Under the pieces are notes generated by a model. The model was not told the DNA's origin and did no database searches. It saw only the letters and a program-made list of their open reading frames with translations. The translations under genes and the position numbers were made by a program. Shown one piece after another: positions 12,035 through 33,908 of a stretch of DNA of 64,000 nt. This stretch comes from Pomacea canaliculata. Its lineage: Eukaryota > Mollusca > Gastropoda > Architaenioglossa > Ampullariidae. Positions within the stretch are counted from its first letter, which is position 1; each line of letters starts with the position of its first letter. The stretch covers positions 12,406,192 through 12,470,191 of the forward strand of contig NC_037603.1 in assembly GCF_003073045.1 (NCBI RefSeq). Direction: 5' to 3'.

Positions 12035-14944
12035 TGTTACACTGGTTTTGTACTCAGGAACAATAAATGGAGTGATATTGTTTACCTTACCATGCTTTGG
12101 CAAGTTCGTGTGGCTGTCACGTGGTCATTGGCAGGAGCCCACATCACTGTACCCTGATATCAGACTATCCACCTTCTCTCCAGACATATTAAGGATTTAA
12201 ATCCTGTAGTTTGGGTTTCTACAAAGTCTGTAGAAGCTGACCACAATCCAACCTGCCTCATCAAAGAAAACTTGGAGTAGGTGGGTGTGAACATTGCTGA
12301 CATCTGTGTCAGACATAATTTGTAACGGTTTTGGTTATCAGTTTCAAAGTTACAGACAGCAGTTAAAAGCGACCAAGTGGAGAGAATGTCAATAAAAATG
12401 ATCAATTCGTCTTTTAGAAATGAAATGTAAATCCAAAAATAATCATTCAAACAAACAAAAAATTCAAGAACTTTCCTACTTTTTGAGATAATGATGATGA
12501 AGGCGATTACTTTGTTCAAACAACAGTGAACTTACAGACATCTGCTCAGATGTAGTAAATATACACTTTATAGCAAAGGACAATATGCAACTAATACAAC
12601 TTTAGTAATCCAATAGGTAGTGTTCTCAGGCTACCAATATACAGATAAGTACATGCATGTACATATTAACTACAGTGAATAAGTTCTCTCTATATGTGCA
12701 CACTCACACAAACACACAGACCAACAGTAGACACACTTGGTGCACCGACTTAGGTGACCTCAGCTAACACAGTTTATCATGTGTATTATGTAAAGTAAGT
12801 TGAATATATAATATTGCATTAGTCCACGGAGAAAATGTTACCCAGTGTACCCCTGGGATATCAGTACCCCCGCTCTCAGTGACTAACTTTATCTCGAACT
12901 CTACACCTACAGACATCAATAGCAACAGGTCAATGGCTGCTGTTTCGTCTTCTCAGATTGCTGGATTTCGAGACACGTGTGCTAGCATTTGTGTCAACTC
13001 CACATAATTCTCTCAAGTCCGACAGAAACAAGAGTCCAAGATCTCGTCGCAACTCTCGGCAAGTCTCGGCAAGCAGCTGGTCGCGATATCGCCATTGATC
13101 TCAACTCTTGCCTCAGCAGCTTTAATGGCCCACGTGAATAGATTTTCTTTAGGTGTTTGTTTGTCGCCAGTTCATACAGTTTAGTCTTCCGTTTTCTGAA
13201 CAAACTTTTACAGCAGGGTAGGATGCGTGGTGAACCTTGCCAGCTGTTGTTTCGGGGTGCCACCTAAAACTTTTTAAGAGAAGGCGCGTTTTTACTTGTC
13301 CAATCTCTCTTATCCAGCTTTAACTACATAGGAGACTAAACTGTATAACTAAATAAGTCGATCTTTAATTAAATCAGAGATTTAAACACTGACTGGGTCA
13401 TACGGGTACTAACATTACCGCGACCCGTTACATCTAAGTGTGATGGACTTGATGGGCGAACAGGTCTTGATGAGCTATGGACTGCTGCTAAACAACTTAT
13501 GGAAGGGTCACTTACTGTTCACTGACCTTTAGATGGAACACTAGTTTCTGATGACCGAGTAGTTCTGAAGTGTCCGAGTGCTTAAAGAACAAGAAAGTAG
13601 ACGAGCTTTGCGAACCAGGGTCAGAAATTAGTCTCAGGGTTAAATAGTGACCTTTGACTCTGTTCACATCCTAGTCCTATACAGAAGAACATATTACTCA
13701 ATGTTTCACATCTTTGATTTACTTAAACCTTAACTCACATGTTGTGTAAATCTGGACGAAAAAATATAACCTTTCTGAACCTGAGTTTTAAAGATTATAC
13801 AAAAATTAAACTCAGCAGCAACCTTCAACCACCCGACCAGTCCACCCTGATCCATAAAATGGTGACGCATGCAAGCTTTCAGAACCTGTGTTTGAGTAGC
13901 AGATAATAAAAACAATTTTAAAAGAAAAAATTCAATAATCAGCACTGGTGGAAGGTGAGGACGGGGACATTGCTTCATAACACCCACGACAACACGTGAT
14001 CGAAAGTCAACAACAAAATAACATATAAACAAGATGTTGTTTTCTATAAAAAGAAAAAAAGTTGTTCAAATCTGAGGCAAAATCGGAGGAAAAATATCTT
14101 AAAAACATTGTCCCAAGGAGATGATAGAGCAGTTTAGGGATGGAGGTTGTGAAGGGAAGCAACTCCCCGCAGGCGGCGCGGCCCGTTAGCAGGTGATAAC
14201 GAACAAGATGGCGCGCGGTAAGTCAATCGACGTGGACATTTCACGGCAGACCAGCAAGGATTATGCCGATTAAACTGCTGCCACAAACAAAGTTAATGGA
14301 CCATGTAGGTAACTGGATACATGCTGATGTTAAGATCGGCTTGTTTTTGTTCCTGCAGGTAGGGGCTGCAGGTACCCAGGTAAAGAACCTGCGGTATAAA
14401 AGCATCCCCCATGGAGGGAAAGGAGCCACGAGCCTCATTTTCACTCCAGGGAAGCCACTTGTTTGATGATAATCATTTGTATTAACTAGTCTTTCGATCT
14501 CAAGTCTGGACGGGTATCTACCCTGACTTCATTTGCTGTAGAACCATCTGAATAGTTAAATTACCTGGAAAGTTAGTGTTGTTCCTAGATTTTTCTCTGT
14601 ATTTCAATACTATTTGATGTTTGTTAGTATTTGTGTTTGTTTACTGTATAACAAATGAAGACGAAATGTAATTTTAACAATTTTTACTAAAAAGAGAATA
14701 AAATGAAAGTAATTTATTTTATCTTATTTTCACACGAAATAACCTGACAAAACATGTGATACTTTAAAAAATTTATCGGAAAATATTTATATTATTTACT
14801 AGGTAAGAAATAATTACATGCTTAGATTGTGTTGCAAAGACCTTAAACTGTTATTTAGTATTTATTTAGTATTTAGTCTAATTGTCATATCATAAGTAGA
14901 ATTAATTTCTCTATCTATCTTCTCTCACTGTACAGCTCAGCAAG

Positions 14945-17900
14945 ATGGCGGTTTTCCAGGTGATTCTGGTGGCCTTCTTCGCTATGAGTTGGTGGGACTG
15001 TGGTAAGAAAAATTTGACAAATTTTTGCGAATTTTCTGTATCACATTCTGGTAATTTTTTTCTCAACATTTTTCTCATTTACAGTCCTTTATATGTCTAC
15101 CCCTAACCCCTCTTTTTTACCCTGAGGTGAGATAGTGAGATCACCTGTAATCCTAGCGGCTCACCACGGTTCTAGGTGAACTCAAGATACTTGATTCATT
15201 TCATGACAAGTTTAGTATTTTAAAAACATTACAACATTGATACACGAACATTAATTATAACTAAAATTTAACATTTGTATCTTTCACCCGAACCACTTTC
15301 TTGGAGATACAAAGGAAATGAGGTTAATTATAATTATTAATTGTTAATTATTAATATTTAATTGGATTTTTCATACAATCTATAAAATTGGATTAATGCT
15401 TGTGTTAGGGTTAGCTATTGTTTAGTTTAGGGTCAGTGAGGGTTTGGGTTTGAGCACGGATTTATATCTGTCTGCTGGACTGATTGCAGACGAAGTAAAA
15501 GCACAAAAAAATTCTTTCGGTTTTACTATCAATATAAACAATATGAGCAGACGATGCGAGCTCTCGTGTTGACGGAGGAAAAAAAATTGAAACTTTATGA
15601 TCAGCTATCTTTTAGTTTATTAGCCCTCAACCGTTGGAAATGGAGGTGGAGGACTTTTTTCCAAAAAGAAAAGAAAGAAAAAAAAGTAAAATATTTATTG
15701 CAAGACTATTGTTGACTTTAAATTTTTTTTATTGCGAATGGTTGCCAAAACCAGACGGACTACAAGTTCAGTAGAGGCTAAGAATGGGTCAGTAGTCCAG
15801 AATTGAACCTCCGTGGTTTAAGATTCATCACATAAAGTAAAGGACAAGGACGGTTTGCGCATGTCTCGCCCATCTCGTTGGGAAACTAAGGTCTTGAGAA
15901 GGAAAATCTTTTTAACATTGCCTACATTATCGTACATGTAAAATGTCGACGTCCACCAGCGATATAATTCATTTGGAAATATATTTATTGCAGCTCAGAG
16001 CCTTGAGATTGAAGTGCAGACCGACACAGAGAGCAAATCATTGATTGTCAACTGTTCTTTCGACAAACCTTCATCAACAACGATGGCAGTGTTGGCGATT
16101 CACATCATCAAACCCTCGTCCCAGGGGGAGGAAGAAAGTCAAGATCAGGTATCTGACGACAAAAAGAAGCCCTCTCAGTTGGAAGACGCACTGGCGACCA
16201 TAAGGATTGGTGAGACTAAGCCCAAAGTGAAAGATGACAGTGGAATGGGGCGGTGAGTTGTCAACCAGTGAAACAAAATAAATTAATTAATTACATACTG
16301 ACTTGGGGCAGAAACATGACAAGTGGTTGCGAGCAAATAAAACCTTAGTAGGGTAATTTTTTCTTAAAAAAGGATTTGTTACAACTTAGTGCAAGATGCT
16401 TTTTCCCCAAACCTGGTGTATGCCCTTGTTTCCAAACTACACAGAGTAAAAGTTCAAAATCGTGACCTCACAATTAAGATATATTGCAGCTTTCCCATTG
16501 GCTGAGGCCTTGTCTCCACGCACAATGCTGACGTCAGCGTTGCGGACTTCTTTCTGTTGATGCTGGTGTTTGAAATCGTGTGTCTCGAGACTGGACAGGG
16601 TGTATCATAAACATCTTTTGGATTCGTTCTGCCTCGGAAAATGTTGTCAAAAGATTTCTCTCACACAAACAAAACACTCACTTTATTTATTGAACCTCGA
16701 GCTAGCGACCACACTCCATAACTTCTCCCCCTGACTGGTCGGTGAAAGGAACTGAAACTACCGACAGCAATCGTCCATTAATTCACTTAGCTACTCACAC
16801 TTCTTAACAAGGTGTTGCCACTGGAATGTGTCTGCGCATGTGCAAACAGTCCAACGTAGTTGCCAGCAATGAACATCTTTTCGCTGCTCATTCTGCCAAA
16901 ATCTATACCTGAGCCATAATTTCAAACCCTAAATTCTAATTCCACTCTAAACCTTCACCTACACACCAGTGTGTTTAATGCACGGTCAAGTTAAAGCATG
17001 TATGCACGCGCACCTTACCTTCTATAGCTTGTATACACACATATATATATATTGTTTTATATATATAACAAAAGAAATTGTCGGACACTGTAGTGGTTCG
17101 TTATCTTACTGGTTGCCCGAGTAACGGCTATGCCACGTCTGTAGTGATGATCAGGCCTTTATTGCTGTGTCTGTCAGGTTCTCTGTGGAGGGATACATCA
17201 ACTCTTCATATCCCTCGGCCTGTTTCTTAGAGCTCAACATCAGCAACATCAGCGCTGCAGACGCTGGACTGTATCAGTGCAGAGCGGAAGTTCTGGACTC
17301 GAGCTTCTCGTTTAGGACTGACTGGGCGGAGACAAACGTCACTGTGACAGGTGAGCACTATGACGACTGAGTGGGCGGAGAGAAACGTCACTGTGACAGG
17401 TGAGCACCATGAGGACTGAGTGGGCGGAGCAAAACGTCACTGTGACAGGTGAGCACTATGAGGACTGAGTGGGCGGAGCAGAACGTCACTGTGTCAGGTG
17501 AGCACTATGACGACTGAATGGGCGGAGACAAACGTCACTGTGACAGGTGAGCACTATGACGACTGAGTGGCATAGAAACGTCACTGTGACAGGTGAGCAC
17601 CATGACGACTGAGTGGCATAGAAACGTCACTGTGACAGGTAAGCACTGTGAGGACTGAATGGCATAGAAACGTCACTGTGTCAGGTAATAACCAGGTGGT
17701 GCGCACCCCACCCCACCCCACGTCTGCATTACTCTCCCCAAGATGTCGCCACACGGTTAAGGATCGAACGACACACTTCCTGCTCTTGTCATTTAAACCA
17801 ACAAATTGATTGCATTACACAGGTAGGAATGGGAGTCAACTCCCGCCGAGGTGAGAAAATAAGTCTAAATATTAAAAGTTATTGCGACACCTCTTACAGA

Positions 17901-20685
17901 GCTCGATGTTGGAGTCTGTAGCTGAACTGCAGCATTTGTTATGGTTGTAACAGATGGTGTTGTTCAGTTGTATCAGATATTCTTATGTAGCTGTAACAGA
18001 TATTATTTTGGTTTCACTGTAACAGATGGTGTTCTTTTTAAAGACAAATATAGTTTTGCTTTTTCGGTTTCTAATTAAAGCTCTTCGCATGAGCTAGGAA
18101 GGCAGTTTAACTGTCTGCCTGCCTGTCTGTTTATCTGATGAAGATGACATGGGTGATCAGATGAGCCAGTGGCTATTTTTAGCTCACGCCAGAATGGTGA
18201 CAATGGATGGAATGGCCTCAAAGTCATTCAAATGATCGAGTTCATAATGATGGCCTCATACGTATGTAGCAGATGGTGACTTTGTTTATCAGCAGCAGAA
18301 GACGAACCTCAGGATGTCCAGTGGGTGGTGCAGATAGCTGAGCTGCGGGACAGACTGGAGGCTGAGGAAACAGAACGAGGCTTTGCTGAAAGGAAAGGTG
18401 GAGACACTACAAAGAGAGTATGACGAGCTGTCAGGAAGTGTTGACAGTCTGGAGAACCAAACATCCATCCTCAACCAAACTGTCCACGACATCGCCGAGG
18501 GCTACAAGTCATTGCTCCAGCTAATCAGCGGTAAAAAGGACATCAACAAACCTGAGAAAACAACCGTTACAACCGAAACATCACATGAACAGGAGCAAGC
18601 GCCCTCTGAACAAGAACATGTGAACTCCGAAGCAGTGGAACCAGCAGCTCAAGAGAAGGATGCTCCATCTCAAGCAGAGGCCAACAGTTTCGTCGTCGTC
18701 CCGCCAGGTGCAAACGAAGGTAGGCTTCCAGGTGAACGAGGTAAAAAAAAATTGCTATGAAATCATGGATATTTATTCGTCAAGATGGACAAGCTAAATA
18801 TTACACGATTACTTGTGTTAAAATGTTTTTACCATGAGTACAGCTCAGTTTATGATTCCATTTCTCCAAATCTTTGTAATTACGTCACTTCCGGTTTTGG
18901 GATACACACCTACAAACATCCTCATGATCGCAAAGTCCACAACACGGACATGAGGATTGAGCTTCGATACTTGTACCTTGTGAAAGCGCCCGCCAATGGG
19001 AAAGCTGGGAACATATGTTAATTAGGCATATCGTGACGTCACGACTTTTTGACCTTTCCCCCTTACACAGATCACCGGCTGTAAACATGTTTATTATTTA
19101 ATAAATTTTATTGTGTAACGCTCCAGTTAAGTTATTCGTATATCAGTGATGAAATAATTACATTAAGTATCAGCGTATGTCCACACTTGAGTTAGAAAAT
19201 ATTGTAGTCAATGAGTCGAATTTCCTCTAGGTCACGTGACATAGGAGTGAGCGGCATGCTATGGCCTTGTTTTTGCACTTAAAGAAGTGCTCACAGACTT
19301 AGTTATTTCCACGAACTCTATCAGGCACAAAGTACAGACAAGAGGTCTCAACACTCGTTGACTATTGACAGCAGGAGTGGTTTGATATATAATCATAATA
19401 AACACATGATTTACACAGCACATACTCACACCTGTCACGAGCGTGCTCTTAGCCCGTGAGACAAGAACGAGACTTGGACAATACGAAAGACAGAAGGATA
19501 AACAACAACAGCGATGAATAATAAAAGACAAACAAAAACACAAGATCTGAGGGTTTCTTGATTCTGTAGAGGAGACGGGAAGTAGCCAGTAGACAATACA
19601 TGTGACTTTTGACCTCATACATGTGACTTTTGACCTCATACATGTGACTTTTGACCTCATACATGTGACTTTTGACCTTATCACACAGGAGGACCAGCAA
19701 CGGTTACTAGAAAGTGCTTCGTGTGTGGCGATCCTGAGGCCAACCGTCCGTGCAACGGCGAAGATCTGGCAGCCACCAGCGCCACTGAGTGTCCGACAGG
19801 AAAAGACTATTGCATGAACGAAATTCACTCAGACGATGGATTCAAATGTCATCTACAAAAGGTAGACATTTTCTTACTGGTTTGACGGTCAGGTGAGAAA
19901 CAGCAATCCCTAGAGTTGATTAACTAGAATTTCATTAGCATTATTCACCTCCGTCACAGCGCAGGTGCAAACGAACACCCACGTGACTTGACGGGTCACG
20001 TGATCCGAGCCATCAGTTTGTTAGAGACCAAGCTTCGCATTCATACATGTGCACGTTGTTATATTGGATTAAGGTCGGGTAGACGGATGTTTACCGTGTT
20101 CTCTCACAAATAATACAAAAGAAGTAAATAATGCTGAATGTATGACTGGGTGGGGTATCTTTCTCCGGTGACCGTGGCGCAGCACCCGGTATACCCGGTG
20201 TACGTATATAGATAGGGCCACCCGGGTACATGTTCATAAGAAGGCAACAAGATATGAAGTCAGACAAAATGTGGCAGTTCTGTAAATGACAATTTCAATT
20301 GTTAATCGTCTTCTTTGCCATCTTCTCCTCTGCTACGAAAATAACATCATACTGTCCGTTCTTACATTCCTTAAACTGTTGCTAAAAGTCACATTGTTCG
20401 TCTCTTCCATCATCTGTGACCATCATAACAGGGCCTGGAGGTCAAAGTGCGCTGACCTGTATTTTGTTGACCTCGTGTGTGTACAGTTGTGCCAGTAAGG
20501 AAGAGTGTGTGGACAAAGACAACTCCGAGTCGTCCTCATGCCATCCGTTCTTCCCCATCTGGTTTGGAACCGCGGCGAGGCAGTGCACCTTCTGTTGCCA
20601 TGGAGACGCCTGCAACAACGAGTTCAAGCCCACCAGAGACCTTTTCAAGACTGGGGCTGAGACAAAGCCGGACACTGCCCACTGA
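14945..20685 (+). CDS. Secreted Ig / coiled-coil / three-finger (Ly6-uPAR-like) protein
   Basis: Exons are 14945-15002 (signal peptide MAVFQVILVAFFAMSWWDC), 15994-16252 and 17178-17350 (one Ig domain), 18293-18719 (coiled coil and linker), 19689-19861 and a last exon starting at 20487 or 20500. Ig marks are the first Cys in VNCSF and DAGLYQC before the second. Exon 4 encodes a heptad-rich helix (LQREYDELSGSVDSLENQ) and then a Glu/Ser/Thr-rich linker. Exon 5 opens a cysteine-rich module (RKCFVCGD, TECPTGKDYC) and the last exon closes it with FCCHGDACN, the Ly6/uPAR ending. Phases agree through the first four exons at both ends, except for a one-base break inside exon 4 near 18365-18380. The strong acceptor at 20486 is out of phase with exon 5; the weaker AG at 20499 is in phase and gives an even number of module cysteines (12). 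No GPI signal or membrane helix follows, so secretion is likely. The Ig plus coiled-coil front resembles gastropod FREP-type lectins, but with a three-finger domain in place of fibrinogen. A role in recognition is inference. Confidence 0.75.
17322..17692 (+). repeat. Tandem array of the Ig exon's 3' end and splice donor
   Basis: The last roughly 30 coding bases of the Ig exon and its donor are repeated to give eight donors, with GT at 17351, 17400, 17449, 17498, 17547, 17593, 17639 and 17685. The period is 49 for the first four steps and 46 for the last three. Each copy keeps TCACTGTGACAG or TCACTGTGTCAG before GTGAGC, GTAAGC or GTAATA. Reading past the first donor meets an in-frame TGA at once, after GEHYDD, so only the first donor keeps the reading frame open. 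Confidence 0.95.
19599..19680 (+). repeat. 21-bp tandem repeat beside a 3' splice site
   Basis: Four copies of CATGTGACTTTTGACCTCATA, nearly exact. The last one runs to within about 10 bases of the acceptor at 19688 that precedes the three-finger exon. The repeat therefore supplies the pyrimidine-rich and branch-site region of that intron. Confidence 0.95.
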
Positions 20686-20838: not shown

Positions 20839-20844
20839 AATAAA
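20839..20844 (+). terminator. Polyadenylation signal AATAAA
   Basis: The first AATAAA after the stop codon at 20683-20685, about 155 bases downstream. It probably ends the Ig/three-finger transcript. Confidence 0.6.
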
Positions 20845-22257: not shown

Positions 22258-25200
22258 ATGGCTGCAAACTTCTGTATCTTCTTCGTTTTGTTAGCTTTTC
22301 TGCCTTCAGGTGAACTGCAAGGTGAGTTCTGTTTGCAGTGCTTCTCTGTCATACATCAATAACTCATACACGACAAGGAAGCATGTTGCGAAACATATTT
22401 ACAATTTTTAATAATTATTTTTATTTCATTGAGACTCACAAGTAGCTTAAAAAATCTAAGGGTAGGTGCAATATTTGCCAAGCCTGATGTTCCATGCAAC
22501 CACTGTTGAAAGACAGATTAGGTGACACGAAGTATTTTCTCTGGCATCGTTTCTTATATGATGAACCAAATTGTCGAAGCCAAAGTTGCCCAAGCAATGC
22601 CCGAGTGATGGAAGCCTTTTCATCTCCACAATTTTTAAAATTTTAATGAGGAGCCAGATGTCAGTACTAGACATCCCTAGAGTCACACCATAATATTGTT
22701 AGATGACATGGAGGATTGCACATCACATGAATGTTTCTATTGTTACTTTCAGGTTTTTCTGAGAACTCCACAGCATGGGCAAAGGGCAACTTGTGAGCTT
22801 TCTCAGGAACACCATCAGTTGTCTAAAGGGAGAAGCTCCTTCGGATGTTTATTCATTATCGTTTTCAAACAAGCAGCCTCTCTCATTGTCCTTTCACACG
22901 GCTTGGAATTACCTGGTCTTTAGGTGAGACACTTCCCCCTATTTATACAACATTTTGTGATATGTTTAAAACTTCTTCTCAGCCTTGCCACTGAACATTT
23001 TATTTGTACATCCATGGATGTCTACATATCATTCCTCAAGACACTAGGCATTAGTGTTTGAAGCTCATGTCGCCAATCGTGTGGTAGTCACAGTCACACC
23101 TGTCAGCGGGAACCTGAGAACACCTGTGTTGTGTTCCGCTTAACTGACTTCATAAGGATGTCGGTCGGGTGGCTAGCATTCCAGACACGCTACACACCCG
23201 GGTGGTTAAGGAAAGTTCTTTTCCCGACACACAAAGACTCATTGACTACGGTTAATAACTTTCTTTACTCAGCCGGTTGCGAGTCTGAATAACTCGCTTG
23301 TATTTTAGGTAAAAAACAATTCGAATGTTCAGAAACTGTGAATGATGAAAGCAACGACGATGAGTGTGTGCGCGTGCGTTTGTGTGTGTGTGTGTGTTTG
23401 AGAGAGAGAGAGAGATCTATATAGAAATGCATGTTTAAAAATAAATTATTATACATGTAACTATAATTTATATATGTGTGTGTGGGGGGGGGGGGTAAAG
23501 GGAGGATTGGGAGGAAAGTCCGGCGAAGTTCAATCTTTGCTAAAAAAGAAATATTTAGTCATCAAGTAGCACGAGGTAGACTTAAGCACTGTTGACCTTT
23601 TGAATATTTTAAGTACACGTATTTATTTATATGTGTATACACTTATGAAACAGTTTTGAAGAGAAATAAAATGGGTTGTACCATGGATGTGTACAGGTGG
23701 ACTGCTGTCTGTCTACCTAGACAAAAGTTCTCCGCTGCTAGTCTCCGCGAGCCTAAACAATGAATGTGACTAAACCGGAAGCTTTGTACACTCCTGCCTC
23801 GTTTTAGTAGTTAACTGGAAAAAATCGTCTGCCAGCAGTCCAGTGATATCTGGTTGTGGTTGTACCGTGTCATCAGCACAGACATGCCTGACCTGCTCTT
23901 ATCGTAAATCAGAAAGCACAAAGCTAGTACCACGTGATTAGATTACAGCCTGATAAATCCTGATTTCAATAATTTATAACTGTCTTATCAAATGTTCATG
24001 ACATTTTTCAGTCCAAGTAGTTGAAGTTTACTTCTGGTCAAAGTTCTTTGTCTGCACCGGACATTTAGTCAGTTTGAGCGAAATAATATCGCAGTTTTGT
24101 TGCACAGGTAGGATTCTTGATCACCTGGCTTCTCGTGGAACCGTGTCAATCCACCGTAAAGGACCTAAACACCTGAGTGTACATTGTCAGACTTTCAGAA
24201 CTCGGGACTCCGGGGTGGTCCAAGTGAAACACGAGTCAGAGCATGTCAGATGCCATCTCTCCCTTCACATACTCCCGTGCCAAGAACAACGCAGACACAT
24301 TTTTATACCTTTACTGAGAGACAGAGATAGACAGGAAAGAGAGACGGAGAGAGAGAGAGAGACAGAGACATTGTCTTTATCTGATAACCTACGGCCTGTT
24401 GTGAGGACAGCGGCAAGTAAACAGATCGTTGATTTATGAATTAATTACATCCTCAGGTACTCGAGGGTTTAACTTAGTCCCCTCGGACATTGTGTGGCAC
24501 AGTGACAGTACTTGTGCACACAGTGACACTCTGTTGTGTCAGTGTCCTGTCTAGAGCACACCTGCTGTATGTTCGTTTGTGTCATGATCTGTTGTGATGA
24601 CAGTCACGTTCTGGAGTGTGTAATAACAATACCATATCACGTGACAGTGACGTTCTTCTGTCAGAGACAGTGACGCTAGCTTGGTGTGACAGTGTCAGTT
24701 AACCGTGACATAGTGACACTTTGTCGTGTGACTGTCATACAAGCGACAGTGACATCTTGCTGTGTGTGGCAGTGACGTCGGACGCAACACCATTGTGGTC
24801 ACCAACTCGACCCGTGCTGTCTACGCTCACGTCGGCACGTCACCTAAAGTTGGTCACGTGTCTGTAGACTGGGTCAGCAACAACATTTACTGGGCCGACG
24901 CCGGCTTCGGGTGGATTGGACTCCAGTCTCTAAAGGCAAGTTTTCAACACCTGTAAACCCTTCCCCTTTGTTTACCAAACTCTGTGACGTTTATATTAAA
25001 TCGTTAAACTCCTGTAACTCCTTGAAGTCCTAAACATAAAATGTTCCACGAGTTCAGATGTCCACCCTCTTCCTACCCATCGCCATACACTCCAAAGTTG
25101 GCATGCATATAATGTGACTTAACAGTTTTAGTGACAAAAGTATTTTATATCTTTAAAGTCGTTAAGCTACTGTGTAAAATAATTTTGATTTATTTATTTG

Positions 25201-28200
25201 AGTCGTGTTTTATATTTAACCTAATAACGGACTGCTTATTTCCGTATGAAGATCCATTTTAAATGTGTTAACTGAAAGTAGTTATTACCTTTTTCAGAAA
25301 CATTTATAGAAAGTTTGGCGTTTGATATTTCTTTTGTGCTTTTTTTCTTAGAGTGATTTGGCAAAATTTGCGACTAATGGACGACTGAAAGTCATCGTCT
25401 CAACATTCCTGGAACATCCATACGGCCTGGTTGTTGCACCGAATTACAGGTGAGCTCAGGTGCTTTCTGTTTGTGTGGTCTGTATGTAGGGACAACAAAC
25501 AGGACGATTTCTCACATTTGTGTCTATTGTTTTTGAAGTGCTTCGTGCTTACTTTCCCTATCATATTTTTGATAGTTTATTTTAGATTGTATATACGCAG
25601 TATAAATGTGTTGTTAATTCTCAGAGTTGCTCAAGGAATGAGTTGTTTGTTTATTTCTCTTTTCTTTGCTCTTCTTACCCGGGATGCTCTTCTACAGCTT
25701 ACAGTTAAATCGCGAAGCTCAATGACAGTTTAAAATTATTTCTGCTTTTAATAGCACTTCATGTAAAACATTCCCAAGATAATCTGCATGCAGAGGGAAG
25801 AATTTAGTAGTAAAGCTTATTACTATACGATGTACACGAGAAGAAGCACTTATTACTTACTCTCAGACATGCACGAGAAGAGGTAAAACTGATTATTGTA
25901 CGGTCTAAATGATAATTGCCAATACTAATTACAATCTCCTCGATGCAACTTGTCAGGCGTGTTTTCTGGTCCGATGTGGGATCTTCGCCAAAGATTGAAA
26001 GCTCCGACCTTCTGGGATCCGACCGCAAAGCTCTGGTTTGGCAAGGCTTAGCCACCCCGACCGCCCTCTCCGTGGACCAATCATTACAGCGCCTCTTCTG
26101 GACAGACCAATCAAAACACACCATTGAGTCATCTGACTTTAATGGCGGGAATCGCCGCGTATTGTATTTCTCGGAGGACAGTCAGTTCGGTGGACTTCAA
26201 GTGTTTGCGGTACTTGTAGCAGTATATTGTATCACTTGTTATACTTCATATTACATTATGTTTCTTGTTTCTTCTGAAAACACTTTTTGATTTAAAACAG
26301 TTTCTGTGAACACATTTTCTTGACAAATATCATTCCATCAAGAGTCTCGATATCCTTAGCACAAAAATGACACTTTCTCACTTAATTGCTTTTGGTTCAT
26401 TGTGTGTTTCTGCAGGAATACCTTCTGTTCACACAGCAGAACACCAACTCATTGCATGGTCTGGACAGACTCACGGGGAAGCAGGTGGTGTCCAGCCTGT
26501 CTCTACCTTCTGATCCTCCCGGCCCTCCCGGAAGCCTCGCTGTTTTCTCAACTGCTTTTCAGCAAAGAGGAAATAACAGTAAATCCTTAATTTGTTACCA
26601 ACTGCTGACCCCTACAGTCACAATACATTTACAATCTGATCCACCCGACTATAAATACCGACTACAAGTGGTTCGTTGATAAGAATGTACAGGGACATGC
26701 CGGACGACTCCTAGAATAATAAATATTTTACAGAGCCATAAATTTATCGTGTGGTTATCTCACTTGAAAACTGCAATAATGCAGGACATGTTGACATGTT
26801 TGTTTTGGACAGTTTCCTGTAGTCAGATGACATGTGGCCACATTTGCATACAACAGGAGCAAGGCGGTGTTTGCATCTGCACTTCTGGTTCAACTCTCAA
26901 GTCTGACGGAAAAACATGTCAAGGTTAGTCTTTAATCTTATAGATTAATAATAACATTTATAATACAACATTTTATATTTATGTCGCACACAAGTGAAGT
27001 GTAGATACGGGTCAGCTCACTTGAATGCATTGTGAGCACCTTGAATGTTTCACTTGAGGTTTAAACAATATCTTTCCTTGACTAAAACACATGTTGAACA
27101 ACAGAACCATCCACGAGAATTTTATGCAAATGCCTGTGCATTTTGAAATCCTTTATCAAAATATTTGCATGTTACTTGCTTGTCTTCAGGTTCACTGATA
27201 ATACATTTTATGAAATAGAAAGAATTGAAAGTGTTGAAAGTTTCAGTGCAGGATTTAGTTAGAATTTTAGAAATCGGTAATGTTTAGTAAAAGATGGTTA
27301 CCATGGTAACATTCGTAGAATAGTGTAGTAGAGATAAAGTAAAATTTGTATAGAGTATACATATTGTGGGATGAGCACACAAACAAATACAATTCATTTT
27401 CAGAGAGCTCAGTTCCCTTGTGGAAAAGTTTCATCGTGAGTTCAGCAACCAGAGTGTGTGCAGTACCAGTCAACCTCCTCTACAGTTTTCCCAACCTGCC
27501 TCCTCCGTTCTACAACATCAAATGCTTTCTCAACGAGTCCAACATCCAGCACCTGGCCATCAACTCCTACAACGCCACCTTGTACTACGTCACAGGAAGC
27601 AGCTGGATTCGAACACACGATATTCGTAGTGGGAAAACCGACAACATCACCACCACGGCCAACAGTGTAGGCGGTAAGAGACATACACGACATCACACAT
27701 CTTATCATCTCCCTTCAAACTCTCCTGAACTCGTGACTCAACAGACTCTACCTGAGAGACAGGTGAGGGATGTATGAAGACAGGCAGTGAGGCTGACTGA
27801 TGTTTAAATAAAGTCAATGGCAGTTGGTCAGACTTTATGTCAAAGAGGAAATTTCCTCGTACACGAACATGACAGACGGCAGAGCCAACAACACAAGATC
27901 CTTATCCTTATCTCCCTACATAACTCTCAAAATAAAATAACTGAAAGCTTTTCTGTCAGACTTCTATCTGTGCACTATTCTTAAAATAACGAAATAACTA
28001 GATGTCTCTCTTGCTCGGCAAATATGTCTCTATAAGGAGTTATCTACTCTTTTTGTATTGTTACTCAAAAGAATTATCTACATTCCAAGTGGACCTTCTT
28101 TTCTCTTTTCTTATTCTATTTTTTTTCTCTCTATCTCTCTCCTATGTCACTTATTGTATTTCTTAGGCATTACTTACGACGAAGCAAGAGGAATCCTCAT

Positions 28201-31200
28201 TTGGTCAGAGACATCTGCCGGGCGAATAATGGAGCTTGATCTTAACAGGGGCGACAACGCCACCCAGCTGTACTCGAACCTTAACAGCCCGGGCGATCTC
28301 ACCGTCAATTCTCTTAGAGGGTGGAGTATTTTATGTTTTGTTTTATCATTTTAGTGCAGTCATTCTTTTCTATTACTCTGACTTTTTTGTTTGTTTGTTT
28401 TTGTTTTGTTTTTTTTGCAAAATTATGCTCTCAGTGGTGTATAATTAGTTTTAACTGAAAGCATTTGAGACCAAATGTTACTTTGTCACAGGCTGCTCTT
28501 CTGGGTGGAAACCTTCAACAATAAATACACATTAGTAGCTGGGGCAGTTGTCTCCCCGTTCAACAAGTCCGAGCTGGTCAACTCGGGCCTCATCCGCCCC
28601 CACAGCCTGGTGTACGACGACAAGCAAAACAGGTTTGCTGCACACTCATGTTATAATAATTATAATTTATTATTCATTAACAAACCCTAAAGGTATGATT
28701 GCACGCTTTTTCTGCTATAATGTCATTTTAATATTGATCACAACCTAGAAGATGGTATCTAAACTATCTGAAAATTTCGAAGATGGGAATATATCAAAAG
28801 TAATGGGAATGTTTAGTGCAAAAATGTGAACAATATGATGATACTTGTAGCCGAAAGTTGATAGTAATATGTTATTGAAATGCAATTGGCAGATGTGTAT
28901 TTATCTCTGGACCTTCTGTCTGCTGCCAGAAACGAGGAATGTTGTTGATTGTAGTTTCTTCTCACTAGGTTGTACTGGCTTGATGTCGACTACCTGGGTT
29001 CTGTCAGAGGAGATGGCAGTGACAAAAGTGTCATCAGCCTGAGTTCTGTCACAACCTACCGAGGCCTGGCTTTGTTCAGAGTAAGCACATGTACAACTAT
29101 TATTTCTCTCCCTCTGTCGGTGCAATAGACCAATCACTATGCACTTGTTTGAATAAATATTGTAAGTGACAATGGACCTCACTGACTTGCTATCGTTAAG
29201 ACATTGCCTGGCTGGCTGGCTGGACTAGAAATAATGTGTTGAACAAAGTTCCTTCCTGCATCTCTAAGAATTGGTTACCATAACCTGCACCATCTTGATT
29301 TATGTCTTTAAACAGTCGTCATGGTAATTTTTTAAAATTTCTGAATGCTTATAGCACCAATGGGTGGTAATAAAACACAAACTGTTCTTCAGACTTCGAG
29401 TCTCCTTGGTGACTGAGACCAATAACCATTGGCAGTAATTGTTTTTCATTCCAGAGCAACCTGGTGTGGTTGACCCGCTCACCTGACAGCAACGTCACCT
29501 TCCGGTCTTCTGACCTCAGAGATGCCAGCGTCAGACGACCTTTAACCTGCCTGGTCTGACAGACTTGACGGACGTAGTGTTCTACGACGCCGACGCCGAG
29601 ATGCCGGACAGCGTGTCCTGCGGACGGAACAATGGCGGCTGTCACCAAGTCTGCATCGTCGATAACAACATCCCGCGATGTGCCTGCAGGTTCGGCTTTA
29701 CCCTGCAAGACGACGGCGTCACGTGTGCTGCAAGTAAGTCACGTGAGCCACAAATAAGTCACGTGTGCTGTTAGTCACGAGAGAGATGCAGGAATAACCG
29801 GTATACCAAAACTTTCCCTGGGAAGGGTCAACAGTTGTAAATCATCTGTCCATCATATTTACTTTCCAGGATACAACACTAATGCCCTTTCACAAACAAA
29901 CAAACAAACAAACAAACAAACAAACAAACAAACAAACAAACAAACAAACAAACAAACAAACAACCCCGATTCATAGATTTCCCTGAACACGACTTTGAAA
30001 ATAACGGTTTGACAACAAACATCAAAACCGTTTTTTGTGTCGTTGCACAGGTTTCGTCACTGCCAACTTCTTTCTGACCACGGAGCCAGTGCAGTCGGCA
30101 GTTTATCAGATCACGACTGACGATGACGTGTCAGCCCTCCCAGTCTCCCGAGGCTCTCAACCCGCATGCGCCATCTACAATCAGCTGACTAATGACGTCA
30201 TTTGGTTCGACAACGCAACCAGCGCCATCAAACGGTCCTCCACGTCAAATGAACACGTGACAGAGCAAGTCCTTCTGACTCTGAGTCGTAAGTGATCACG
30301 TGACTGCCATTTTCCTTCTGTCTTCTTCTTCCTCCTCTTGAGAAGATTATATATATATACATGCATATAATATATATAATTATATACATATGTGTGTGTG
30401 TGTGTTTAGAATCGAATAAGGTGACCTCAATGAGGATCGACTACTCCACCGGCAACTTGTATTTTGCCGAAACCACGGAGAATGAGAGCAATGGCTGGGT
30501 TCGAGTCCTCTCTTTGAAGAACGGCGCTCTTCACACGATCACATCGACTGTTGCAGTCCGGTACCTGGACATCGCCCCACAGCAAGGGTAAGTCCTCCCT
30601 TCCTACTCCCTCTGTCCCTCGTGCCCGTCCTGAAAGACCTACCGAGGGCTACTTTATTTTAGGCTCAAGATAATCTGTACCCTCACTGTAAATGTTCATC
30701 GTAAAGAACATCCTAATATCTTGATAATTAATGTAGTGAAATATTTGATTGACAGATACCTTGTTTATGGTTCCACGACCGGAAGTATTTACAAGTCAGA
30801 CATGGCGGCTGAGACTCCGCAACTGTTGAAAAGCGGCCTTGTGGGGCTGTCTGGACTCACTTTCACTAGCAATGGTGAGTGACACGAAGATAAGACAATT
30901 CCTTTATGGATAATAATAAAATTAATTCATAATTATTTTTGCAGTCTACCCGCCTACCTGTGTTTATAGATGGCTCTTGAGTAGGGCAACCGAAAAATCG
31001 CGGTAAAAAAACGTGACTGTGACTCATACCACGTGACGGTTAATGACAATTTGTTCTCATTCTTGCAGGGATGTCGGTTGTGTGGTCAGACTGGGTAAAG
31101 GATGAGATAGTGGAGCGACCCCTCGACACCCTCAGTGACAAGATTCGGTTACAGAAAGCAGGCAGCTTTCCATATTCTGTGATGACTTGGGGTGATGACC

Positions 31201-33908
31201 TGTATTACCTCAGCAAGAAAAGCCTGTGAGTGGTGTTGCTATAGAAACCGACTTCTACTTTAGTCAATTACTGTATAAACATTCTGTTAAGATGATGCTT
31301 GCTTCCCTTTGAAGGTTGACAAGTTTTTCCCGCCTTTATCCTAATCCGCAAGTTAAATGCAGCATGTCTTTATTGCATTTTTATTCATTTAAATTCTATA
31401 GATGAAAATCTTTAAAATGTCATTTTGTATAGTTAGTGATGATATATTCTACATAAATAAAAACTAGATGGTCACGAACAGCCATAAAGTTTTTCAATGT
31501 GATCAGACAGAAATATTGATTTCTGATATGGAGTGGTGAAGCTGAGAGAATGATATAATAAATAAATAAATAAAATAAATAAATAAAATAGTTAACTAAC
31601 CAACCAACCAACAAACTATCAATCTATGATCCCAGTACTAAGTGCAATCTTTTGTTTCACAGAAGCATTAATCGCCTGACACCCACCAATCAGGAATCAG
31701 AGGTACACCAATTTCCTCAGTTGGGAATGCTCACATCTTTGACCTTTCAGGGGTCAGCTCCTACATCTCGTATGTATACTCTTGTATACTCATAATTGTG
31801 TCCTTGAACAACTATGTTCTTTGCTTCTTTCACCTGATTGATTTAACAGCATGACTAGTACAACAATTGTCATGGCATCGTCTGTCACAATTTGCTGCTG
31901 TTTCCATTTTCTCATGTTCTACAGTGTGACTAGTGCTTTAGATTCCGACACTGTTTGGCAGTGTGACTTGTGCTTTAACTTACTATCATATGATGTTTCA
32001 TCTGCAGCATCCACCGCTTGCAGTGACCGCAACGGCCGCTGCAGCACGCTCTGCATCCCTACGCCCAACGGAGCCCGGCAGTGCGCATGCGCGTATGGTG
32101 TGGAACTGCTGGACGATAAGAGAACATGCAAAAACGGTAAGGACAGTGTGTTTGTGTGTGTGCGCGCGCGTGCACGCTTTCAGTTGCCGAAACGAGCCTC
32201 CCTAACCTGTCTGCTTTGTCAATCTTGTGTCTACAGTGGAGCCATGCAGTGGCGCAATCCCCAATGGTGACCTGGACGTGACCTGCGACCGGTACCCGGG
32301 GTATGCCTGTGACTTTACCTGCAGACAAGGTTATATCAAAAGCGTGCACACCTCTATTCTCTGTCTGAATACGGGTTTGTGGAATGTGTCCATCAACAAA
32401 CTCTGCCCGCAGGCATGCCCCACACGGTTTCCAAACGGAGGCGTGGAGACTTCCTGTCAACCTGCGCCTGGCCAATCATGCACTGGGACATGTGACTTGG
32501 GCTACCAATCAGCGAGCGGCAAGAGTTTTACACTCACGTGTGGAGAGAATGGTCAGTGGATTCCAGATGTCAATTCTCTTTGCTACCAACCATGCACCCC
32601 GCAATTTCAAAATGGCGTCATGGATACTTCCTGTCGACCTGAGCCTGGACAATCGTGCACTTTCATTTGTAGCTCGGGCTACCAATCAGCGACGGGCACA
32701 AATGTAAACGTCACGTGCGGCGCCAATGGTCAGTGGACTCCAGCCGTCAATTCTCTTTGTGTCGGTAAGTAAAAACATTTTTATTGGAATAATAAACTTC
32801 ACTAAGCTTCACCAAACCGATAAGTTCTCCTCTCTCTAAAACATGTCATCGTCATGGTAACTTTGTTCTGATGCTCAGATCCAGGACAAAGTCAAGGACA
32901 AGGTGCAAGTCAAGGCTTTCCTGACTACGCCATTGGTCTCGTGTCCGCTGGGGGCGTGGCCATAGTGGCTCTGGTTGTGGGGTACATCTTGTACTCTCGG
33001 TGAGATGATGCTTCTCTGTCTCTCTCGCTTGGTTGTCATGGTGACTCTCAATTTCGGTTGTTTGACTTATTTATACATTTCATCATACTTCGCTACCGAC
33101 AACACTTCTTTTTATTTCTACTCCTGGCACTAGATATGAAATGTTAACTTTTTAAAGTGTTTTTATCTTTTATTGTCTATTTATTTGTATTTTAACTGAT
33201 AATGAACGGCGTTATGTTTGCGATATTAATGTGTGATTTCAAACATATTTCAAGCAACAAATTATTTTTTTTTCACTCGATGTGCGTAATTGTTTACTTT
33301 TCTCTTTTATCATCAGAATGAAGCGCTACAGGGGACACAATCCTAAAGACAGTATTTCCGGATTCATTAAAAAGAAGGTGCTGTCACGTACGAGCAGTGC
33401 TGACAGCACAGCAACTGTCAGATATACCACCAGCCCCGCAGTCAGGACTCATGATGTGGACAGTCTCTATGATGAAATCCCAGCCTCCATGGTCTATGGT
33501 CAGACCAACAATGGCTTCCAGCCAGACAGCCTCGACTCTTCTTTCTCTCGTTCACCGCACGTGACCTCTGACCAAAAGGGTATTTATGATACCAGCTATA
33601 TCACACTCATAGACTACGCAGAGCCCATCGATGAGAAAAGCCCACAGCCTTGCCCACGTACATCCTTGAAGCAGTCAGTAAATAATGGTTACCTGACAAC
33701 CTCCATGCATGAAGGAAACCTACAAAATTGCCGACAGTCCTCTTCAAGCCAGCTACCAGACAATGGGTACCTGAGAGTCTCCCTGGATGGAAAAAACCCA
33801 CAGCCTTGCCCACGATCCTCCGTGAAACAGGATGCAGCAGCTGGGTACCTTAGCCCAGGATCACCTGATGTGCTGGGCTTCACCAACCCAGCCCCTGACT
33901 ATGAGTAA
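22258..33908 (+). CDS. LRP-like type I receptor: three YWTD propeller-EGF modules, three sushi domains, TM, tyrosine-rich tail
   Basis: Exons: 22258-22321 (signal peptide MAANFCIFFVLLAFLPSG), 24773-24935, 25352-25449, 25957-26209, 26416-26578, 26813-26923 (EGF1), 27404-27673, 28167-28320, 28492-28632, 28969-29080, 29455-29733 (EGF2), 30051-30287, 30410-30587, 30756-30874, 31069-31225, 31663-31769, 32008-32136 (EGF3), 32237-32764 (three sushi domains), 32879-32999 (membrane helix), 33317-33908 (tail). All phases agree from 24773 onward, except a one-base break in 29455-29733 near 29535. The first join is out of phase, so a small exon between 22.3 and 24.7 kb is probably missing. Propeller blades show IYWAD, VFWSD, LFWTD; LIWSE, LFWVE, LYWLD; VIWFD, LYFAE, VVWSD. 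In LRP receptors such propellers bind or release ligand. No LDL-receptor class A repeats are seen. The sushi domains have six cysteines each, as in selectins. The protein is about 1325 residues and probably a surface receptor; its ligand is unknown. Confidence 0.85.
23484..23495. repeat. Poly-G run after GT repeat
   Basis: About twelve G in a row after a short TG run, in the first intron of the receptor gene. GT and GA runs also lie at about 23376-23415. Confidence 0.9.
24335..24372. repeat. (GA)n-rich tract
   Basis: GAGA and GACA purine run in the first intron of the receptor gene. Confidence 0.85.
24480..24772 (+). repeat. Degenerate ACAGTGAC repeat running into an exon
   Basis: A diverged repeat in which CAGTGACA or GTGACAGTGAC recurs at least ten times over 290 bases. 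It runs up to the acceptor at 24771-24772, and the exon's own first bases (AGTGACGTC) match the unit. The 3' splice site therefore appears to sit in the last repeat unit. Confidence 0.7.
24936..24941 (+). promoter_or_regulatory. GC-type 5' splice site
   Basis: Exon 2 of the receptor ends in CTAAAG followed by GCAAGT. A GC-AG junction to the acceptor at 25351 keeps phase 0 and joins IGLQSLK to SDLAKFA. No usable GT lies nearby in the right phase. Except at position 2, the donor matches the strong AG|GTAAGT consensus, as is usual for GC donors. Confidence 0.75.
29897..29962. repeat. (CAAA)n microsatellite
   Basis: About sixteen uninterrupted CAAA units in an intron of the receptor gene. Confidence 0.97.
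31556..31592. repeat. (AATA)n microsatellite
   Basis: AATA tetranucleotide run in a receptor intron. Confidence 0.9.

Follow-up and report, generated by a model that had tools for sequence, protein, structure and literature searches.

A six-exon gene of Pomacea canaliculata that most likely encodes a secreted Ig–coiled coil–LU protein

The 64,000-nucleotide stretch of Pomacea canaliculata contig NC_037603.1 analysed here (C14:12406192-12470191; hereafter the window) carries on its plus strand a six-exon gene that runs from an ATG at 14945 to a stop at 20685, with GT-AG borders at all five introns. Its exons most likely encode one secreted protein made up of a signal peptide, a single V-type immunoglobulin (Ig) domain, a coiled coil, an acidic/Thr linker and a three-finger (LU) domain. 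This assignment to a single Ig–coiled coil–LU protein is favored because the junction between exons 4 and 5 is compatible in phase 1, a hydropathy scan found no alternative signal-peptide exon between them, and homologous two-exon LU modules lie behind other ectodomains elsewhere in the genome. On balance, we favor the fuller reading that this is one modular secreted-protein gene whose two Lypd6-like LU exons act together as a C-terminal module, placed by this genome behind several unrelated ectodomains.

Results

Exon 1 (14945–15002, plus strand, as are all features of the gene; exit phase 1) encodes the putative signal peptide MAVFQVILVAFFAMSWWDC, and a hydropathy scan, rather than a dedicated predictor, shows a signal-peptide-like hydrophobic N-terminus with a phase-1 donor. 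The Ig domain is divided between exon 2 (15994–16252; phase 1 in, phase 2 out), which holds the N-terminal half with the B-strand cysteine in NCSF, and exon 3 (17178–17350; phase 2 in, phase 1 out), which holds the C-terminal half with DAGLYQC. It matches the Pfam V-set family with an E value of 1.4e-4 and 22.4 bits, under the 26-bit cut-off, and at E ≤ 10 it matches 76 distinct sequences of the PDB (best E = 3.4e-4); nearly all of the 60 inspected are named Ig-type proteins or antibodies, and one is nameless. The loop between the canonical cysteines spans 99 residues and the sole Trp lies outside it, near the C-terminal end, indicating that this is a divergent Ig. A 49-bp minisatellite (7.8 copies, 17316–17686) begins within exon 3 and copies the end of that exon together with its splice donor; read-through beyond the first donor reaches a stop.

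Exon 4 (18296–18719; phase 1 in, and phase 1 out in the frame that follows the break described below) encodes the coiled coil and a Thr/Glu-rich linker, and has an alternative in-frame donor at 18740. The heptad pattern in the 59 exon 4 residues past the break was equalled by 17 of 20,000 shuffles; the 21 residues ahead of it give no heptad signal alone (17,226 of 20,000 shuffles). The coiled coil, of ~70 residues, should make the protein oligomeric.

Judged from sequence profiles, exons 5 and 6 most likely encode a Lypd6-like LU domain. Exon 5 (19689–19861; phase 1 in and, when read as the homologues are, phase 2 out) contains the first half with cysteines 1–5, while exon 6 (20487–20685) contains the second half (CASKEEC ... 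CTFCCHGDACN), a hydrophilic C-tail and the stop. There is no hydrophobic tail of the glycosylphosphatidylinositol (GPI) type, and hence a GPI anchor is not expected. The best Pfam match is UPAR_LY6_2 (Lypd6), at E = 1.4e-4 over profile positions 6–92 of 106 with 22.5 bits, which misses the curated cut-off of 31.5; masking a doubtful stretch gives E = 9.7e-4. Toxin_TOLIP, matched weakly, is the only other family. With phmmer the module found 0 PDB matches at E ≤ 10, and a profile built from the LU alignment matched only SLURP-1 (E = 5.6). Compared with the standard LU cysteine spacing, the window module has the conserved framework shared by LU proteins of the UPAR_LY6_2/Lypd6 kind, that is, 12 cysteines, phase-1 entry, a CxxC start, C-x6-C, C-x5-C and a closing CC-x4-CN. 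LU domains are typically encoded by a symmetrical, mostly phase-1 exon set, and the window module agrees with this in its phase-1 entry; being the last of the gene, it is not followed by an exit intron. A perfect tandem repeat (4 x 21 bp, 19596–19678) lies directly 5′ of the exon 5 acceptor.

An initial annotation of this stretch had proposed the same order of modules, and the start, stop, introns and domains between 14945 and 20685 bear most of it out, including the signal peptide, the single Ig domain, the heptad coiled coil and the cysteine-rich module ending in FCCHGDACN; the Ly6/uPAR kinship that it suspected for the two cysteine-rich exons was recovered in the profile search. What did not survive is a continuous frame through exons 4 and 5. 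Spliced directly, the exons give no single open frame, as there is one break in exon 4 (18355–18370) and another in exon 5 (19832–19850). The simplest account of each is one surplus base, judged for the first by the heptad register and for the second relative to the homologues. With a single surplus base at the first break, three of four core positions are hydrophobic, versus one or two with other spacings, and the alternative frame of exon 5 closes on ..YK plus a split codon, the same as in four homologues. An in-frame acceptor at 18353/18354, inside exon 4, could bypass the first break, and is not preferred because it has no pyrimidine tract.

The breaks raise the alternative that this is a pseudogene, a formerly functional Ig–coiled coil–LU gene disabled by two frameshifts, which we regard as rather unlikely. 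Besides the breaks themselves, it is favored by the failure to find a second genome copy of the Ig and coil exons, by a homologue on contig C4 (C4a) that likewise looks frame-shifted, and by a degenerate FREP-like gene at C14:1300080-1301860, which shows that decayed genes occur in the assembly. However, beyond the two breaks the splice sites, cysteines and remaining frame are intact: all five introns are canonical, 12 of 12 LU cysteines are kept, and the intended frame has no further stop, including ~119 codons of exon 4 past the break. Moreover, each break fits one surplus base, the type of error expected in raw PacBio reads. The assembly was made from PacBio reads with smartdenovo and Illumina-corrected by Pilon, and the genome is highly heterozygous (excerpt of PMC6129957). 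We tentatively consider long-read assembly errors a more likely source of the breaks than decay.

The intron between exons 4 and 5 bears on a second alternative, that an Ig–coiled coil gene (exons 1–4) is followed by a separate, small Ly6-type gene (exons 5–6). With the intron retained, the exon 4 frame continues to a stop at 18760, AATAAA motifs occur at 19100, 19397 and 19520, and LU proteins are mostly single-domain, as stated in part of a review (PMC6600238). Yet in the 950-bp gap (18741–19680) the hydropathy scan found 0 signal-peptide-like start codons followed by a phase-1 donor, compared to 8 on the whole plus strand, exon 4 has two in-frame phase-1 donors to join the phase-1 acceptor of exon 5, and three readable LU homologues lie directly behind linker exons with a phase-1 exit. 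Two neighboring genes are thus improbable, and the six exons would be transcribed into a single mRNA.

Whole-genome searches covered the P. canaliculata assembly of 440,159,624 bases in 24 contigs. By tblastn, the window LU module matched nine places at E ≤ 10: its own two exons, two on C4, and one each on C2 (E = 0.0017), C11, C6, C10 and C1. When one of the C4 copies (C4b) served as query, 11 places were found, comprising the complete exon pair in each of the two C4 copies, on C2 and on C11, the first LU exon of the window, and weak matches on C3 and C2. Three of the matches, those on C10, on C1 and at a second site on C2 (4.7 Mb), are weak (E of 0.7 to 5). A further LU-like pair lies at C3:24555494-24556278, where the second exon has E = 9e-7 in a small search set and 0.37 genome-wide and the first was recognized by eye; more pieces resembling the second exon occur on C11 (at 8092279, 8105114 and 8109134) and on C6.

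Alignment of the window module with the four full homologues (C4a, C4b, C2 and C11) shows that the 12 cysteines are invariant in all five. A phase-2 intron splits the module in each of the four, three (C4b, C2 and C11) have the phase-1 entry acceptor, and in these same three, the readable ones, the exon preceding LU exits in phase 1. The exons ahead of LU are of different kinds. On C2, LU follows a Ser/Thr linker exon that is entered and left in phase 1, and ahead of this linker lies an exon for a C-type lectin domain (Lectin_C, 23.9 bits against a cut-off of 22.6; E = 7.1e-5). C4b has ShK-like Cys exons, then a long Thr/Ser repeat exon, again phase 1 in and out, and then LU, and the C11 LU is preceded by a Cys exon that carries a Ser/Thr linker and exits in phase 1. 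From position and phase, we infer that upstream exons and LU form one gene in these homologues. A scan for the Ig motif DxGx[YF]xC in the minus strands of the stretches taken from C4, C2, C11 and C6 (C3 was not scanned) gave no match, and therefore no second Ig–LU gene was found there. The distribution is most simply explained if the LU exon pair, with its phase-1 entry, phase-2 split and terminal stop, spread behind ectodomains by phase-1 exon shuffling.

Two of these loci have features of their own. In the C2 stretch (C2:31088001-31108000), the Ser/Thr linker and the LU tail come after what appear to be two C-type lectin domains in tandem, of which a single exon is Pfam-confirmed. The C4 stretch (C4:22805001-22845000) is a tandem gene pair with ShK-like exons and LU tails, in which one member has a 451-aa Thr/Ser-repeat open frame and the other, C4a, looks frame-shifted.

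Several points weigh against our reading of one modular gene with a shuffled LU tail, in addition to the Ig and LU scores under their cut-offs, the SLURP-1 match as sole PDB return and the broken frame. The gene model is predicted from genomic sequence, and two frame breaks are a lot for one gene. Neither the Ig nor the later part of exon 4 has another genome match (at E ≤ 10 and E ≤ 1, with only the best candidates scored), and the pairing of Ig and coil is therefore without independent support. Among the homologues, two neighboring C2 pieces that are lectin-like by eye match no family, the C4b ShK-like exon that was scanned is weak (E = 0.28, below cut-off), the C11 Cys exon matches no Pfam family, and in the three homologues scanned no LU-family match falls below E = 0.5 (C11: QVR, 0.59). 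Lastly, the C4a LU exon lacks a phase-1 acceptor, and the C4a frame shifts in the Ser/Thr stretch and at the LU entry; this copy is itself broken or misassembled, and its frame shift is readable either way, as error or as decay.

We also compared the window gene to the gastropod VIgLs (FREP, CREP and GREP), which have in common a signal peptide, an Ig domain, a coiled-coil region and a C-terminal domain. Their published criteria, as given in excerpts, are a secretion signal, at least one Ig superfamily (IgSF) domain matching gastropod FREP IgSF profiles and a coiled-coil interceding region (PMC10875847), and for a FREP, CREP or GREP the C-terminal domain must be fibrinogen, C-lectin or galectin (PMC10875847, PMC9334734). 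The window gene has the secretion signal, by its hydrophobic N-terminus and phase-1 donor, and the coiled coil, by the heptad pattern past the break; as to the IgSF domain, its V-set score lies under the cut-off, its PDB matches are to Ig-type proteins and its match to one FREP-like Ig of this genome is insignificant; a Pfam scan of exons 5–6 did not find a VIgL-defining C-terminal domain. Because the criteria demand one of those three C-termini, the window gene is not a VIgL by definition.

Descent from a true FREP/VIgL that exchanged its fibrinogen domain for LU is a separate question, and one to which we would give a low probability. The order of parts is the same (Ig, coiled coil, Cys-rich C-terminal domain), and the NCSF..YQCRAE look of the window Ig, as a lead only, recalls what we take to be the pattern of Biomphalaria FREP Ig domains. 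Fibrinogen exons gave 167 matches in the genome, and in three stretches examined we found two FREP-like genes with Ig, coil and fibrinogen on the same contig as the window (C14, ~1.30 Mb), one of them the degenerate gene described above. However, the readable Ig introns of both are in phase 0, and the intact-looking one has the Ig C-half and the coil in a single exon, whereas the window Ig has a phase-2 intron and its C-half on a separate exon with a phase-1 exit, a difference in layout that is not a published criterion. The window Ig matched the one FREP-like Ig tested, from the degenerate gene, with a best E of 0.03, which is insignificant in a database of two short sequences.

Of the initial annotation's view that Ig, coil and three-finger domain constitute a FREP-like type, the single secreted protein probably holds and the FREP/VIgL membership is not supported. 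Its further idea, that LU replaces the lectin of a VIgL, is not supported either, given the missing C-terminal domain, the different Ig layout and the C2 gene, in which LU comes after a C-type lectin domain and therefore looks like an added tail, not a lectin substitute.

The fibrinogen-domain genes form very large arrays at C7:20.3-29.1 Mb and C14:1.27-1.34 Mb. In the C7 stretch inspected, EGF-like and PAN-like open frames were read ahead of fibrinogen, and on the minus strand at C14:1309700-1312000 reverse-transcriptase-like open frames, identified by eye, lie upstream of a FREP-like gene.

Motif scans of the gene's flanks showed a TATA-box-like TATAAAA (14395–14401, plus strand) ~550 bp 5′ of the ATG, a motif also present at 14045 and 15381, and an AATAAA polyadenylation signal (20839–20844, plus strand) ~150 bp past the stop. 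A 5′ untranslated region intron ending at 14935, where an acceptor is seen, is likely. Rfam gave 0 matches in the window at the gathering threshold. A PF00021 search of the genome gave 0 matches, with its controls silent as well. The neighboring downstream gene, in the same orientation and with a guessed extent of 22259–33908, looks LRP-like, with a signal-peptide-like start, LDL-receptor class B repeats at E = 3e-16, an EGF-like FXa_inhibition domain at E = 5e-12 and Sushi at E = 3e-14.

Discussion

The arrangement of modules suggests how the protein may work. The coiled coil would gather several chains into an oligomer, with the Ig heads at one end of the coil, the LU heads at the opposite end and the linker giving reach. 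Low-affinity Ig and LU heads could then bind protein partners with avidity outside the cell, and such two-ended binding might bridge two surfaces, linking for instance a component of a cell or of mucus to a foreign or neighboring cell. With its clustered heads on a coiled stalk, the window protein may work like a VIgL by analogy. Lypd6 modulates neuronal receptors and Wnt signaling (excerpt of PMC11595613), which makes it reasonable to view LU as a head that docks onto proteins. An immune role is only plausible, as one of several that include mucus, egg and epithelial matrix, and the label "recognition factor" is a plausible guess. P. canaliculata is an invasive snail and a carrier of rat lungworm; if secreted into haemolymph or mucus, proteins of this kind would be its candidates for a recognition or bridging function.

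A broader proposal, which we advance tentatively and think could well be wrong, is that the gastropod LU is a mobile C-terminal module, a recurrent phase-1-shuffled tail on lectins, on ShK/mucin chains and on an Ig-coil stalk. These proteins would form a secreted multivalent class parallel to the VIgLs, all of them docking through a common LU head.

Searches of the open-access literature turned up no mollusc protein in which an Ig or lectin domain is joined to Ly6; a two-finger-type protein is reported in P. canaliculata (excerpt of PMC12236594). Close comparisons exist within the genome itself. The window gene and the LU-tailed genes on C2, C4 and C11 share a homologous, C-terminal LU pair with a phase-2 split and, where readable, a low-complexity linker exon. 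They differ in their N-terminal parts, which are unrelated, and in the stalk, which is a Ser/Thr-rich linker in those genes and a coiled coil with an acidic linker in the window gene. Measured against the FREP-like pair on C14, the window gene has its Ig intron in another phase and its exons arranged differently. Beyond the snail, GPIHBP1, SP-10 and the TGF-beta receptor ectodomains have other partners and are not known to carry an Ig domain or a coiled coil. They are described, in part of the same LU review, as LU in a non-homologous protein context (PMC6600238), which is also the situation in the window gene. Known LU proteins are, in that excerpt, mostly single-domain or LU-only repeats, whereas the window LU would form the head at the C-terminus of a secreted protein with several domains and no GPI tail. 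The review considers LU at best a "proto-module" (PMC6600238, excerpt), a view that several loci of one genome with the LU pair behind unrelated ectodomains make directly testable. The apparent repeated shuffling of LU in a single snail genome suggests that LU is more than a mere proto-module, a modest and testable novelty.
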